Origin: Methanobacteriota archaeon
Lineage (GTDB): Archaea; Thermoplasmatota; Thermoplasmata; RBG-16-68-12
Length of the DNA stretch: 12,047 nucleotides
Assembly: GCA_005879015.1 (NCBI GenBank)
Contig: VBMC01000003.1
Coordinates: 1-12,047 of the forward strand
Direction of reading: 5' to 3'
Shown here piece after piece: positions 3,441 to 9,841 of this stretch. Position 1 is the first letter of the stretch; each line of letters starts with the position of its first letter. The translations under genes were made by a program, and so were the position numbers. The notes under the pieces are model-generated. The model ran no database searches. It was not told where the DNA came from and saw only the letters and a list, made by a program, of their open reading frames with translations.

Positions 3441-3491
3441 AGCGTCATCCAGGATGGGCGGATGTAATAATGCAGACGGAGGATTTTCTGC

Positions 3492-3497
3492 AGGTGA
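3492..3497 (+). promoter_or_regulatory. Shine-Dalgarno site deciding the pilin-like start at 3502
   Basis: AGGTGA matches the 3' end of archaeal 16S rRNA and stands 4 nt before ATG 3502. Starting there gives a short, basic N-terminus directly before the hydrophobic helix, as expected for a prepilin. Confidence 0.5.
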
Positions 3498-3501
3498 CGA
3501 C

Positions 3502-4499
3502 ATGCGAGTCCTGATCCGCGATTTCCGGTCGGATGAGCGCGCCGTCGCCTCGACCATCGGCACGGTCATGGCCCTTCTCGTCTTCCTCACGTTCCTGAGC
3601 GTCATCGTGAACCAGTATGTCCCGATCTGGATGAAGGATTCAGAAGCGTCCCACATGAACACGGCCCTCGGCCAGTTCGGTGGGGTCAAGGGCGACATCG
3701 ACCTCCAGATGCTCGCCGCCCAGGCGTCGGCGGACGCGGGAACCTTCCACATCCCGGTAACGACGGCGACCGCGATCAACCTCGGCGTAGACGGCGTCCC
3801 GATCTTCTCCTCTCCGACCCCCGGGACGCTCGAGTTGAGTCCCGATGCGGGGGCGTTCACCGTGGCGTTCGACTACACGCTCCAGGGGGTCCGCAAGCAG
3901 GCGACGGACCAGGCGAGTGGAGCGATCGTCCTGACGGCGTCGAACCGCTACTACACGCCGCAACGGGTCGTGTATGAGAACGGGGCCGTGATCCGGTACC
4001 AGACGGACGGTCAGTTCGTCCGGGTCCACCCGACCTTCTCCGTGCTGGTCGCCAACAACTCCTTGGACATCTCCTTCGCCCTCGTGAGCCTCTACGGAAA
4101 AGGGATCGTGACGGGCACCACGACCGAGATGGTGAGCACGGAACTGTTCGCCTTCGATCGTCAGGACTACAGCAGCTTTCCGAGCAACGCGATCATCTGG
4201 TTGAACCACACGTCCGCCTACGGACTCTCGTGGTACCGGTTCTTCAACCAGACCCTCTCGGACACACTGAAACTCTCCGGCACGTACACCAAGAGCGCCT
4301 TCGCCGAGACCTTCACCGCGATAACCGGTGGGAAGACGGTCTACCAGGTCGGTTGGACCTTAACCCGACGACGCAGATCTACCTCGTGCGGCTCACGGTG
4401 AACAACAACCCCGGCGTCATGGGGATCAGCTACTTCCGGCTCCAGCACGCCCAAGTCCAGGTCGGCATCGGAGACGCGACGCAACAGATCCAGTTCTGA
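3502..4499 (+). CDS. Type IV pilin-like / pilus-associated protein, frameshifted near 4350
   Basis: The N-terminus has a class III signal peptide pattern: a charged stretch ending DER13-A14, then an uninterrupted hydrophobic helix from V15 to about V36 (start VASTIGTVMALLV). R-A before the helix fits the archaeal prepilin peptidase preference. Downstream is an extracellular beta-rich domain with few charges (residues ~60-330). The reading frame is broken: after GGKTVYQV it runs into an Arg-rich tail and stops at 4401, while the family-like sequence LDLNPTTQIYLVRLTVNN continues in the -1 frame to a stop at 4497-4499, 12 nt before the ATPase start. One missing base at about 4348-4358 would restore about 332 residues. 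No slippery heptamer is visible, so sequencing error or true mutation is likelier than programmed frameshifting. First gene of the pilus operon. Whether it is a major filament subunit or a minor pilin cannot be told. Confidence 0.75.
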
Positions 4500-4511
4500 G
4501 GTAGACGAATC

Positions 4512-6056
4512 ATGCCACGGAAACGGAAGGTGATGATGCCGAGGGGCGCCATCCAGCAGAAGGCCGAATGGTCGGGGAGTCGCGGGTCCTACCTGACCGC
4601 GATCCCGAACCTGGTCAAGGACACGATGGAGGAAATGGAGGTCTTCTCGATCCGCGAGCCGTTCACGTACGCGCGCATCCTCTACGACCACGATCGATCC
4701 GAGTACATCTACGAGGTGTGGGAGCCCCACCTCGACGCCCGGGAGAAGGAATTCCTCGACATGATCAAGGACTCGCTGAACCGCACGCTCGAGTACGAAT
4801 GGGACAAGATGGCGGAGAAGGACAAGAAGGAATACATCTCTGAAGCGGTGGACTCGTTCATCAAGTCCCGTGGCCTCCGTCTCGAGCCCGCTTCGAAGGA
4901 CAAGATCGTCTACTACATCATCCGCGATTTCGTCGGGTACGGACCCGTGGACGTCCTCATGGCGGACCTCCGCATCGAAGACGTCTCCTGTGACGGAACG
5001 AGCATCCCGCTCTTCGTCTTCCACCAGAAGTACGAGTCCATCAAGACGAACGTCATCTTCGACGACGACGATGCGCTGAACTCGTTCGTGGTCTTGCTCG
5101 GGCAGCGATGCGCGAAGCAGATCTCCGTCGCGAACCCGATTCTGGACGGGACCTCCTACGAAGGCCATCGCGTCCAAGCGACGTACAGCCGGGAGGTGAC
5201 GACCCGTGGGTCGTCCTTCACCATCCGGCGTTACAAGGAGAAGCCCTTCACCCCCGTCGAACTGGTGAAGTTCGGGACCGCGAGCGCGGAGATGGTCGCC
5301 TACCTCTGGGTCGCCGTCGAGAGCGGCAAGTCCATGATGGTCTGCGGCGGCACCGCCTCGGGGAAGACGGCCACCCTGAACAGCGCCGCACTGTTCATCC
5401 GCCCTGGCGCGAAGATTGTCTCGATCGAGGACACACGCGAGATCAACCTCCCGCACGAGAACTGGATCCCCGGGGTCACCCGATCCGGCGTCGGCGAGCG
5501 CGGAGCGGACGGGAAAGCGGGTGGCGAGATCGACATGTATGACCTTGTAACCATGCACGCGGACTCCGTCAAGTCGATGGTCAACCGCCTGGAGAACCCG
5601 CCGATCAACACGCCGCGTATCCTGCTCACCGCCCTGAACTTCGTGGTCATCCAGACGCACGCCCGGATCGGCGACTCAATCGTGCGCCGCATCAAGCAGG
5701 TCGTCGAGCTCGTGGGATTCGAGCCCGAGACGAACGAGCTGATCACGAACACCGTGTACGAGTGGGACGCCGCGACGGACACGTTCGTCTACAAGGGGCA
5801 CTCGTTCCTGTTCGACGAGATCATGGAAATGAAGAACATGACTCACGAAGAGATGGAGTCGGAGTTCGCGCGCCGAATCGACATTGTGAATTACATGGTC
5901 CAGAAAGGGATGACCGACTTCCGAGAGATCGCGAAGATCGTCGTGCAGTACTACCAATATCCCGACGAAACCGCGAAACGGGTCCGCGAGGAGATGGGAC
6001 TGCCGGAAGCCGGAATCCCGAAGGCCGTCGAAGCCGGAGGTGAGACGGTTGGGTAG
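4512..6056 (+). CDS. Archaeal type II/IV secretion ATPase 1 (TadA/PilB/FlaI family), lacks Walker B segment
   Basis: A 514-residue cytoplasmic ATPase of the type that powers assembly of archaeal type IV filaments. The N-terminal domain (about 30-240) carries the DVSCDG block (157-162). The C-terminal RecA-like domain has Walker A GGTASGKT (279-286) and the Asp box SIEDTRE (304-310). At DMYDLVT-MHAD (341-350) the chain jumps from the segment before the conserved Arg residues straight to the His box. Compared with ATPase 2 exactly 36 residues (108 nt) are absent, including the GEVRG Walker B and the 'LRQRP' arginines. The frame is kept and the rest aligns well to the end. Catalysis is therefore doubtful as written. 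The start has GAGGT 9 nt upstream. The gene overlaps the next one by 8 nt. Confidence 0.88.
   Translation: MPRKRKVMMPRGAIQQKAEWSGSRGSYLTAIPNLVKDTMEEMEVFSIREPFTYARILYDHDRSEYIYEVWEPHLDAREKEFLDMIKDSLNRTLEYEWDKMAEKDKKEYISEAVDSFIKSRGLRLEPASKDKIVYYIIRDFVGYGPVDVLMADLRIEDVSCDGTSIPLFVFHQKYESIKTNVIFDDDDALNSFVVLLGQRCAKQISVANPILDGTSYEGHRVQATYSREVTTRGSSFTIRRYKEKPFTPVELVKFGTASAEMVAYLWVAVESGKSMMVCGGTASGKTATLNSAALFIRPGAKIVSIEDTREINLPHENWIPGVTRSGVGERGADGKAGGEIDMYDLVTMHADSVKSMVNRLENPPINTPRILLTALNFVVIQTHARIGDSIVRRIKQVVELVGFEPETNELITNTVYEWDAATDTFVYKGHSFLFDEIMEMKNMTHEEMESEFARRIDIVNYMVQKGMTDFREIAKIVVQYYQYPDETAKRVREEMGLPEAGIPKAVEAGGETVG
6036..6043 (+). promoter_or_regulatory. Strong Shine-Dalgarno site pointing to a TTG start at 6049
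   Basis: GGAGGTGA is a full match to the anti-Shine-Dalgarno sequence and stands 5 nt before TTG 6049. It covers the in-frame GTG at 6040, so that GTG is unlikely to be the start even though it gives the longer frame. The site lies inside the end of the ATPase 1 gene, suggesting translational coupling. Confidence 0.6.
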
Positions 6057-7086
6057 CAGCGCATTCGAGAAGCTTGAGACGCGCGGGACGCTCACGAAGA
6101 CGAAGCGGTTCAGACCCGGAGAACAGACGGAAAAGGCGCACCACATGGTGAAGCTGCCGAAGGGCGCGAAGCCCGTCAGCGTGAGCCTGACGCCGAAGCA
6201 GCAAGTCGCGTGGCGCATGTTCGGGAAGTTCGTGCAGGCCCGGAGGAAAGAGGACCCGGACCTCGAGGAGAGCCTCCTGCGGGCGCACATCAAGCTCCGG
6301 CCGGAAGAATATCTCGCGGTCGCTTGGATGAACACGACGTTCGCCGCGGTGGGCGCAGTGATCGCCGCCTCCGTCGCCGCCCTCTTCCTGTTCTTCCTCC
6401 AGATTCCGATTTTCACCCTGCTCATCATGCTCGGCCTGGTCGCGGCCATTCCGATTTTCTTCTCATACATGTATTTCTTCGGCCTCCCGGTCGGGTACCA
6501 TGGGAAACCGGCCTCCATGGCCAAGAAGCGCGGCCACAAGATCGACAAGAAGATCTCGGGCGCGATGTCGTTCATCTCGGCAATGGCCTCGGCCGACGTC
6601 CCCGTCGACGTGATCTTCAAGGAACTGTCCAAGCAGACGATCTACGGAGAGGTCGCCCGCGAGGCGGAATGGATCACCCGGGACACCGAACTGCTCGGCC
6701 TCGACATCTTGACCGCGATCCGGAAGGCCTCTCAGCGCTCGCCGTCGGCCAAATTCCAGGACTTCCTGCAAGGCGTCGTGACGACGTCGACGAGCGGCGG
6801 TCAGCTGAAACCCTACTTCCTCGTGAAGGCAGAGCAGTTCGAAAAGGAAGACCGCCTCGAGATGCGGAAGAAGATGGAGACGCTCGGGATGCTCGCCGAG
6901 TCCTTCGTGACCGTCGTCGTGGCGTTCCCCCTGTTCCTCGTCGTCATCATGGCGATCATGGCCCTGATCAGCAAGGGCTCATCCGGCACGATCCTCGTGC
7001 TCCTGTACGTCGTCGTGGGCCTCATGATTCCCCTGAGTCAGTTCGGTTTCATCTTCGTCATCTGGAACATGGAGCAGGAGGGCTGA
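6049..7086 (+). CDS. TadB/TadC-like (GspF domain) pilus platform protein 1
   Basis: About 345 residues, counted from the TTG start supported by GGAGGTGA. Layout: a charged cytoplasmic N-terminus (1-90), two transmembrane helices (about 97-117 and 121-145), a cytoplasmic T2SSF/GspF domain (about 165-280), and two more helices (about 285-307 and 313-338). Inside the domain are the typical AMASADVPVDVIFKEL helix pair and the TSTSGGQLKPYF region. The protein would form half of the inner-membrane platform on which the secretion ATPase acts. It carries one GspF domain, unlike FlaJ, which has two in a single chain; this matches TadB/TadC and Methanococcus EpdJ/EpdK. The stop codon is 1 nt before the next start. 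Confidence 0.88.
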   Translation: MGSSAFEKLETRGTLTKTKRFRPGEQTEKAHHMVKLPKGAKPVSVSLTPKQQVAWRMFGKFVQARRKEDPDLEESLLRAHIKLRPEEYLAVAWMNTTFAAVGAVIAASVAALFLFFLQIPIFTLLIMLGLVAAIPIFFSYMYFFGLPVGYHGKPASMAKKRGHKIDKKISGAMSFISAMASADVPVDVIFKELSKQTIYGEVAREAEWITRDTELLGLDILTAIRKASQRSPSAKFQDFLQGVVTTSTSGGQLKPYFLVKAEQFEKEDRLEMRKKMETLGMLAESFVTVVVAFPLFLVVIMAIMALISKGSSGTILVLLYVVVGLMIPLSQFGFIFVIWNMEQEG

Positions 7087-7087
7087 G

Positions 7088-8017
7088 ATGACGAACGCGG
7101 AACTGGAAAAGGCCCGCGTCCGGCTCTACGAGAAATCGGACCGCAAGCCGGCGATCATGGCGACCGGAGGGGCCCTGATGGCCCTCTTCGGCTTCATCGC
7201 CTTCCTGAACCTGATCGGTTCGGTGAGCCTCGCCCTCCGGCCCGGTCAACAACCGATCGAACGCTTCCTCTTCTGGCTCGTGTTCGCCATCATGGGATTC
7301 ATCGGTCCCTACGGCTTCTTCTTGGCCAAGAGGCAACGCGAGATCAAGCAGGTCGAGCGACGGCTCCCGGACTTCCTTCGCGACGTCGCGGAGGCGGGGC
7401 GTTTCGGCATGACCCTCGCGGACGCGATCGTGGTCTCGAGCAGCGGCCGGTACGGCAAGCTCACGCCCGAAATCAAGAAGATGGCGGCTCAGATCACCTG
7501 GGGCGTTCCCGCGACGGAGGCGCTTCGCCTCCTTGCGACCCGCGTCAAGACCCCGATGGTCGAGCGGGTCGTCGCGATCATCGTGAAGTCGTCCGACGCG
7601 GGCGGCGATGTGGCCGATGTGCTGACGATGGTCAGCCACGACACCAAGGAGAACCAGCTCACGGAGGACGAGCGGCGCATCACGATGTCCACGTACATCG
7701 CGGTCATCTACATCTCGTTCATGGTGTTCCTGGTGACGATCTGGATCCTGAACGTGACCTTCCTCCCGAAGATGCTGGAGGCGAGCGGCGCCCTGGAAAC
7801 CGGAGCGGGTGGCGCGCTCGCCGGCGCGAGCCCCCTCGCCAACGACTTGCCGACGGTCGTCTACAACGTCAAGATCGCGTTCTTCATCGCGGTTATCGTG
7901 CACGGCCTCGGGGACGGTATCCTTGCCGGCGTCCTCGATACGGGGAAGATCGCGAACGGGCTCCGTCACAGCTTCATCCTGCTCGTCATCTGCGTGCTCG
8001 CGTTCCTGATCATCTGA
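7088..8017 (+). CDS. TadC-like (GspF domain) pilus platform protein 2
   Basis: A 309-residue membrane protein, the second half of the platform. Hydrophobic helices lie at about 22-48, 58-80, 203-227, 259-283 and 291-309. Between them the cytoplasmic GspF domain (about 85-195) shows the classic RRLPDFLRDVAEAGRFGMTL start, LRLLATRV, and SSDAGGDVADVL followed by a long charged helix. This is close to the TadC pattern 'LPDxLxxLAxxxxAGxxLxxAL'. GGAGG (7077-7081) sits 6 nt before the ATG, inside the end of the previous gene. A Gly/Ala-rich loop (233-252) separates helices 3 and 4 outside the cytoplasmic domain. It probably forms a heteromer with platform protein 1 and is served by one or both ATPases. 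Confidence 0.9.
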   Translation: MTNAELEKARVRLYEKSDRKPAIMATGGALMALFGFIAFLNLIGSVSLALRPGQQPIERFLFWLVFAIMGFIGPYGFFLAKRQREIKQVERRLPDFLRDVAEAGRFGMTLADAIVVSSSGRYGKLTPEIKKMAAQITWGVPATEALRLLATRVKTPMVERVVAIIVKSSDAGGDVADVLTMVSHDTKENQLTEDERRITMSTYIAVIYISFMVFLVTIWILNVTFLPKMLEASGALETGAGGALAGASPLANDLPTVVYNVKIAFFIAVIVHGLGDGILAGVLDTGKIANGLRHSFILLVICVLAFLII

Positions 8018-8021
8018 GGTG
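8016..8021 (+). promoter_or_regulatory. Shine-Dalgarno site pointing to ATG 8027
   Basis: GAGGTG lies 5 nt before ATG 8027 and covers part of the in-frame GTG at 8021. The ATG is therefore the better start for ATPase 2, two codons shorter than the longest frame. Confidence 0.55.
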
Positions 8022-8026
8022 TGCGA

Positions 8027-9841
8027 ATGAGCCAGTCCGCGGAGAAGGTTGATACCCAGGCAATCGAGAAGTTGAGCCGAAGGAAGGCCGCCACCGCAAG
8101 CCGCGTTGCGGACCTCGACCGGGAGCGCGGTGAAGCGAAGCAGATGCTCGACGACCTCGAGAAGAACCGCAAGGCCGCCGTCTTCGGCGCCCTCGACTCG
8201 ATCAAGAAGCGGTACTTCGGCCGCCTGCTCGGCGACCGGGGCATCAAGGTGAAGGCCCCGAAGGTCAGCGGCGTCGTGGAGACGACCCTCGGGAAGATCA
8301 CGACGATCCCGAAGATCGTCCAGAAGAACATGAACGAGATTGAAATCCAACCGATCCTGAAGAACTACGCGTACGTCCGGATCCTGTACGACACGATGGC
8401 GAACGAGTACTTCTACGAGGCGATCGAGCCGAAGCTCATCGAAGAGGAATCGGAACTCCTCGACGTCCTCAAGGAGATCCTCGTCGGCAACCTGGAGCTT
8501 CTCGAAGGCTCGGAGAGGGCCCAGAAGGAGAACTACCTTCGGCGCATGGTCGATGGCGTCCTCCGCGAGCTCGGCGTCGAACTCCACCCTGTCTCGAAGG
8601 AACGGATCATGTACTTCGTATTCCGGGACTTCATTCGATACGGGCCGATCGACGTCGTGATGACGGATGTCCAGGTCGAAGACGTCTCGTGCGACGGCGT
8701 CCAGGTGCCCCTGTACATCTACCACCGCAAGTACGGATCCATCCCGTCGAACCTGAAGTTCGACTCGGCGGAGGAGCTGGACTCCTTCGTCGTCTGGTTG
8801 GCCCAACGGTCCGGGAAGCACATCTCTGTCGCCCTACCCATGCTCGACGCCACGATCCCGGACGGTTCGCGTCTGCAGGCCACCCTCGGCATGCACGTGA
8901 CGAAGCGCGGCTCCTCGTTCACGATCCGGCGGTTCCGGGAGAACCCCTTCACCCCGCTCGATCTGGTCCGATTCAAGACGATGTCCCCGGAGATGATGGC
9001 CTACCTGTGGCTCGCCATCGAGAACGGGCAGAGCATGCTCATCTGCGGCGGGACCGCCTCCGGGAAGACGACGACGCTGAATGCGATCCTCCTGTTCATC
9101 CCGCCCCAGATGAAGATCGTGTCCATCGAGGACACCCGGGAGCTGAACCTCCCCCACGAGAACTGGGTGCCCCTCCTGACGCGCGCCGGGTTCGGCGGCA
9201 AGTCCGCGCACACGGGAAAGGCGGCCGGCGAGATCGACATGTTCGACCTGCTCACCGCGGCCCTCCGGCAGCGACCCCAGTACATGATGATCGGAGAAGT
9301 CCGTGGGCCCGAGGCGTTCGTCGTGTTCCAGGCGATGGCGACCGGCAAGTCGGCCTACACGACGTTCCACGCGGACGACGTGCAGGCGATGGTCCACCGC
9401 CTCGAGAACGATCCGATCAACCTGCCGCGGGCCCTGGTCGCCGCCCTGGACATCGTCCTGCTGCAGGCGCAGGTGAAGGTCGGGACGGACATGACGCGAC
9501 GCGTGAAGGCGATGGTCGAGGTTGTCGGGACGGACCCGGAGTCGAACGAGTTGATCACGAACTCCGCGTACACGTGGAACCCGGCCGATGACACGTTCAA
9601 CTATTCCGGCCATTCGTACGTCTACGAGAAGATATCCCTCACGCGGAACTGGAACCAGCGGCGGATGGAGCAAGAGGTCAAGCGACGCCTGGACATCTTC
9701 GACTACATGAAACGGACCGACATCAAGAACTACCGGGACGTCGCGAAGATCGTCTCGGCTTACTACCGGGACCCGGACGGGATGATCAAGATCGTTCGCG
9801 ACACCCTGGCGTCCCAAGGCGTCCAGGTTCCTGCGAGCTGA
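8027..9841 (+). CDS. Archaeal type II/IV secretion ATPase 2 (TadA/PilB/FlaI family), intact
   Basis: 604 residues from ATG 8027. The first ~95 residues are an extra N-terminal region relative to ATPase 1, highly charged and helical (about 8-65, possible coiled coil). Then come the N-terminal ATPase domain with DVSCDG (219-224) and the RecA-like domain: Walker A GGTASGKT (341-348), Asp box SIEDTRE (366-372), LTAALRQRP, Walker B MMIGEVRG (420-427), and His box TTFHAD (446-451). All catalytic motifs are present, so this is the enzyme expected to drive filament assembly as a hexamer on the platform proteins. It is a diverged paralogue of ATPase 1 over the whole shared length. It ends 8 nt from the convergent MFS gene, with no obvious terminator between them. 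Confidence 0.93.
   Translation: MSQSAEKVDTQAIEKLSRRKAATASRVADLDRERGEAKQMLDDLEKNRKAAVFGALDSIKKRYFGRLLGDRGIKVKAPKVSGVVETTLGKITTIPKIVQKNMNEIEIQPILKNYAYVRILYDTMANEYFYEAIEPKLIEEESELLDVLKEILVGNLELLEGSERAQKENYLRRMVDGVLRELGVELHPVSKERIMYFVFRDFIRYGPIDVVMTDVQVEDVSCDGVQVPLYIYHRKYGSIPSNLKFDSAEELDSFVVWLAQRSGKHISVALPMLDATIPDGSRLQATLGMHVTKRGSSFTIRRFRENPFTPLDLVRFKTMSPEMMAYLWLAIENGQSMLICGGTASGKTTTLNAILLFIPPQMKIVSIEDTRELNLPHENWVPLLTRAGFGGKSAHTGKAAGEIDMFDLLTAALRQRPQYMMIGEVRGPEAFVVFQAMATGKSAYTTFHADDVQAMVHRLENDPINLPRALVAALDIVLLQAQVKVGTDMTRRVKAMVEVVGTDPESNELITNSAYTWNPADDTFNYSGHSYVYEKISLTRNWNQRRMEQEVKRRLDIFDYMKRTDIKNYRDVAKIVSAYYRDPDGMIKIVRDTLASQGVQVPAS

Follow-up and report, generated by a model that had tools for sequence, protein, structure and literature searches.

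The window, by which we mean the whole stretch of DNA analysed here (12,047 nucleotides of the draft genome G000), contains a pilus operon in which the gene order is pilin-like gene, ATPase 1, TadC1, TadC2 and ATPase 2. The features considered are the following.

3454..4499, plus strand: pilin-like gene with a DUF7289 match below the cut-off (open reading frames 3454-4401 and 4230-4499)
4512..6056, plus strand: ATPase 1, an archaeal type IV pilus / FlaI-GspE2-type secretion ATPase (open reading frame, Pfam, lengths in relatives)
5396..5988, plus strand: patch of low identity around the junction (sliding identity to G008, the closest relative compared)
5549..5550, plus strand: junction at which 108 nt, or 36 codons with RQRP and the GEVRG Walker B, are gone; judged very probably a local assembly error
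6040..7086, plus strand: TadC-like membrane protein 1, T2SSF (open reading frame, Pfam)
7088..8017, plus strand: TadC-like membrane protein 2, T2SSF (open reading frame, Pfam); the G008 copy lacks 65 nt
8021..9841, plus strand: ATPase 2, a complete paralogue (open reading frame, alignment, Pfam); the G008 copy lacks 69 nt and 96 nt

At 4512-9841, secretion ATPase and TadC-like genes stand in a single row, two of each kind. Matches to ATPase 1 and ATPase 2 share one contig in 31 of the 41 genomes compared, and the pairing is therefore conserved in the group. The row resembles euryarchaeal type IV pilus loci with ATPase/TadC modules (Makarova et al. 2016, PMC4858521) in joining a secretion ATPase with TadC-like genes and pilins, and differs from them in having two ATPases and two TadC genes; exactly this layout was not found described in the excerpts on type IV pilus loci that were searched (PMC4858521). 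The pilin-like gene reaches 21.8 bits with DUF7289 against a Pfam cut-off of 27. It is seemingly split, as alignments to G008, G002 and G001 place a 1-nt frameshift at about 4358-4363, which may be either another local error or genuine.

As assembled, ATPase 1 has 514 amino acids, against about 550 in most of the database relatives listed. Two Pfam profiles match it, T2SSE and PilB3_C. T2SSE (PF00437) scores 45.5 bits, above its cut-off of 24.9, with a best stretch that covers only positions 101-188 of the 370 in the profile, and gives 113.4 bits on the paralogue ATPase 2. When ATPase 1 is aligned to the paralogue at 8021-9841 the two are 49% identical and there is a single internal gap of exactly 36 residues, located between DMYDLV and TMHAD of ATPase 1 and containing RQRP and GEVRG. 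We take GGTASGKT to be the Walker A P-loop, GEVRG to be Walker B, and RQRP to supply the arginines named after it. With these names, the assembled chain retains the P-loop (residues 279-286), IEDTRE and MHAD, and lacks Walker B and the RQRP arginines. The original prediction had described just this, a protein missing exactly 36 residues (108 nt) with Walker A and the remainder preserved, and the alignment confirms it; its placing of the paralogue 4 kb downstream is a fair rounding of the 3.7 kb from DMYDLV to DMFDLLT.

At the junction the window reads GACATGTATGACCTTGTA followed directly by ACCATGCACGCGGAC, with the break between 5549 and 5550. The bases on the two sides, GTA and ACC, meet exactly between two codons of the 4512-6056 open reading frame, and residue 347 comes next. 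In the complete copy carried by G008 the lost stretch starts with CGCGCGGCGCTG and finishes with CCGACCATGTCG, and the exact microhomology is 0 nt. A deletion between two direct ACC repeats, which had been proposed as the origin of the gap, was rejected because such a loss leaves one copy of the repeat, whereas the ACC triplets at 5542 and 5550 are both still there.

To place the absent residues on solved structures we used an intact relative, P0003. Its residues 43-526 align to 2oap, an archaeal GspE2-type ATPase (E 4e-122), and its residues 102-519 to 4ii7, the FlaI/ArlI secretion ATPase (E 2e-81). We take 2oap to be GspE2; the structure record itself reads type II secretion system protein. 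Both alignments include a RAALRQRPnYIxVGEVRG-like stretch and the HA box, and the 36 residues absent from the window correspond to 347-382 of P0003 and align without gaps to both structures. The assembled copy in the window differs from 2oap and 4ii7 in being without these residues, which the compared relatives keep.

The comparison with close relatives that the original prediction had called for was made at the DNA level. With the 108-nt segment of G008 as query, 15 of the 18 further genomes of the same genus gave a match of 107-108 nt and at least 89% identity where their ATPase 1 lies; in the remaining three (G006, G010 and G013) ATPase 1 is not assembled across the junction point. A search of G000 itself with the segment gave no match at E <= 0.001. 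Across 89 ATPase 1 sequences, a number that includes eight stretches from relatives, several of them on contigs already among the genome-contig loci, a loss of at least 36 nt was seen once, in the window itself, and in none of the 80 genome-contig loci. The segment is therefore present in close relatives and its loss is seen only in this assembly, the outcome that the original prediction had named as refuting a biological reading of the gap. Elsewhere in the same gene, the G012 copy (L221, G012:C255:6000-8600; among the 15 genomes above but not one of the eight stretches) holds the segment but lacks about 163 nt further upstream, which changes its frame. Single stops inside the match were noted in 10 ATPase 1, 2 ATPase 2 and 1 TadC1 rows.

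Of 5246 matches in the protein collection 120 proteins were listed, and among these the window protein stands as a singleton from a single contig. The full segment is held by 114 of these 120, including P0059 and P0062, which fall outside the search pattern for the segment yet have it in full; the other six are the window protein, which has none of it, and five 'src' source proteins, which are short of all or part of it. Three of these five (P0076, P0080 and P0093) lack the whole segment and two (P0084 and P0120) its second part, in every case inside larger gaps, and a further protein, P0079, has the segment and lacks the Walker A region. All six are of source 'src' with no contig shown and have differing internal in-frame gaps. 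We take them to be products of protein-level assembly, and they are probably chimeras of it. A wider class of shortened ATPases was not drawn from them, as their gaps are larger and no contigs are shown.

These counts bear on the proposal that ATPase 1 is functional, either as a regulator or as the non-hydrolysing partner in a mixed hexamer formed with ATPase 2. Two ATPase paralogues do lie in one gene row, and Walker A and most of the chain are conserved. Against this, the Walker B stretch and the arginines are kept in all 15 comparable genomes of the genus and in 114 of the 120 listed proteins, so that no lineage is seen to maintain such a subunit; the window stands alone among the 89 ATPase 1 sequences, and the absent stretch aligns gaplessly to 2oap and 4ii7. 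We regard a partner or regulator as extremely improbable. Equally slight is the chance of a true strain-specific allele that would bind ATP without hydrolysis and poison or tune a mixed hexamer with ATPase 2.

The flanks of the junction show identities of 96.2% and 97.2% between G008 and the window, and ATPase 1 of G008 is intact. G008 has gaps of its own in neighbouring genes of the operon: its TadC2 is short of 65 nt, and its ATPase 2 of 69 nt at one point and 96 nt at another. The three recur in comparisons with other relatives that reach these points, except that the 65-nt gap is unreported against L040 and that L034 ends before the 69- and 96-nt gaps. The G008 contig concerned, G008:C76, is VBLU01000060.1 (L033, L041) of Euryarchaeota archaeon isolate EA_5, which has the same 65, 69 and 96 nt gaps, and the TadC2 and ATPase 2 versions on this public contig should be treated with care. 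Smaller differences flagged outside ATPase 1 were one of 45 nt near the ATPase 2 start (L040/L045, one contig), one of 39 nt in TadC1 (L086, L088) and one of 45 nt in TadC2 (L120).

Because G008 has gaps in the pilus operon, both draft genomes were sampled for losses. We compared 41 G000 contigs (232,103 nt of 1,577,932) with 61 G008 pieces (537,935 nt), keeping HSPs of at least 150 nt and at least 80% identity, those contig pairs in which 500 nt or more were aligned, and net differences of 20-999 nt. A difference was counted as a loss when the shorter side had at most 20 unaligned nt; breaks unaligned on both sides were dropped. In 51,579 aligned columns there were 14 simple losses, nine in G000 and five in G008, with exact lengths of 65, 65, 69, 81, 82, 94, 96, 96, 108, 108, 112, 116, 123 and 128 nt, and the counted set held no gaps of 19-64 nt. 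Microhomology at the 14 losses was 0-4 nt. The idea that all gaps are in frame was rejected on the exact lengths, since seven of the 14 can be divided by three (P = 0.15 against an expectation of one third). The losses form a class with next to no repeat at their ends and no clear regard for reading frame. This also qualifies the emphasis first placed on the frame of the ATPase 1 gap: it does fall at a codon boundary, and this is weak evidence because losses between these two genomes preserve the frame at a rate close to that of chance.

The losses strike genes that are hardly dispensable to a cell. In G000 they remove 65 and 123 nt from ATP synthase subunit A, 128 nt from adenylosuccinate lyase (purB), 112 nt from DNA ligase, 96 nt from an Mrp-like iron-sulphur carrier and 82 nt from a PAS histidine kinase, where the Mrp name scores below its family cut-off and subunit A passes the NF003220 cut-off and fails those of closer models. 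In G008, 116 nt are gone from seryl-tRNA synthetase (serS). The complete copies in L214 and L138 gave no family match. The reading frame differs between the pieces of subunit A (atpA), the ligase and the PAS kinase of G000. In protein searches of G000, the adenylosuccinate lyase match covers residues 108-456 only; subunit A gives three matches on one contig with residues 89-106 and 582-621 absent between them; and the orthologous ligase gives two matches with residues 163-196 absent between them. The ligase alone is no proof, because G000 also has a third match, a short one, as well as another ligase that is 36% identical. The same class of loss is thus found elsewhere in the assembly regardless of gene function or frame.

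Two further observations concern these genes. In G018 (L222, G018:C69:1-1600) one DNA ligase copy is without about 107 nt and changes frame, a loss of the same class in a further draft of the genus; the out-of-frame loss in the G012 ATPase 1 belongs to it as well, and the class thus extends beyond G000 and G008. In subunit A, a stretch at about residues 257-411 is present in G008 (L217:14501-16765), G000 (G000:C9), G002, G015, G007 and G005 and missing from G016, G001, G003, G011 and G018, in which matches split at 255-256/412; it looks like an intein with patchy distribution.

As a control we compared eight other copies of the pilus region in 28 pairs, and found no losses of 60-130 nt in 250,438 columns; the pairs are non-independent, cover the pilus region only and, at 74.6-93.9% identity, are less similar than G000 and G008. 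Seven differences did appear, six measuring 20-31 nt and the seventh 1035 nt.

Identity between the window and G008 is not even around the junction. Per bin it is 96-100% between 4600 and about 5395 and 98-100% between about 5988 and 6488, with a patch of 89-94% at about 5396-5988, where the junction lies. A lasting switch of haplotype at the junction was rejected, as there is only this local dip, which suggests that mixed strains meet at the join. Across the 69-nt gap of G008, identity to the window goes from 97.6% to 91.0%, and both drops are consistent with joins made where strains differ. The assembler would have joined pieces at a strain-variable spot and may have dropped the sequence between them.

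Two papers bear on how such genomes were assembled. PMC6784897 and PMC7111523 are, we presume, Diamond et al. 2019 and Chen et al. 2020.

Depth-sample names link G008 and many of the relatives to PMC6784897, excerpts of which describe assembly by IDBA-UD, with one sample assembled by MEGAHIT with the IDBA-UD scaffolder, and state that scaffolding errors were corrected in the dereplicated bins. We infer that G000 was assembled in a similar manner. According to the portion of PMC7111523 covered here, local assembly errors are suspected to be especially prominent with IDBA-UD. The gaps described above resemble the local errors of short-read metagenome assembly treated there in that wrong local sequence leads to incomplete or incorrect protein-coding genes in databases. 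They differ in the means of recognition, as that text, in the same portion, identifies errors by missing perfect read support and ours are judged from sequence comparison, and the size class of 65-128 nt is our own observation, not taken from that portion of PMC7111523.

A real strain-specific deletion, with ATPase 1 either a pseudogene of recent origin or an allele damaged in some members of the population, has several points in its favour. The gap keeps the frame and leaves the gene otherwise open; de Bruijn assemblers do not usually make a junction without some support from reads; and the 1-nt frameshift in the pilin-like gene, together with the out-of-frame loss in ATPase 1 of G012, could mean that the operon is decaying. 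We nevertheless consider it very unlikely. Losses of the same size class, which break essential genes, separate G000 from G008 about once in every 4 kb, their clustering at 65-128 nt with none at 19-64 nt in the counted set is not what real deletions would be expected to give, and neither is the removal of pieces from both the DNA ligase and the ATP synthase genes of one genome. The exact allele, moreover, has no second copy among the 120 listed proteins of 5246 matches.

We therefore favour, with a probability of roughly 0.94, a local assembly error in a fragmented and probably strain-mixed archaeal draft genome as the source of the 108-nt gap. This reading is based on the presence of the segment in all comparable relatives and on the recurrence of 65-128 nt losses in both G000 and G008, essential genes included. 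Three findings weigh against it: the gap is in frame and the remaining gene open; G008, linked to PMC6784897, carries gaps despite the correction of scaffolds stated in the excerpts of that paper; and the G012 ATPase 1, broken elsewhere, could be read as decay of the gene. Among the three options raised at the outset, assembly error is strongly supported, while a non-hydrolysing partner and an early pseudogene are unsupported because comparable holes exist elsewhere in the draft, out-of-frame ones in essential genes among them.

Most probably, then, the gap is real in the file and not in the organism. The best explanation is that the product of the real gene is about 550 residues long, retains Walker B and the arginines, and is an ordinary secretion ATPase of an archaeal type IV pilus. 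The main value of the finding is as a warning: the sampled alignment of G000 and G008 has a hole of 65-128 nt roughly every 4 kb, and half of these holes happen to stay in frame and can therefore pass for catalytic motifs lost in evolution. A search of such genomes for 'inactive paralogues' should begin with a comparison of relatives and an inspection of essential genes.
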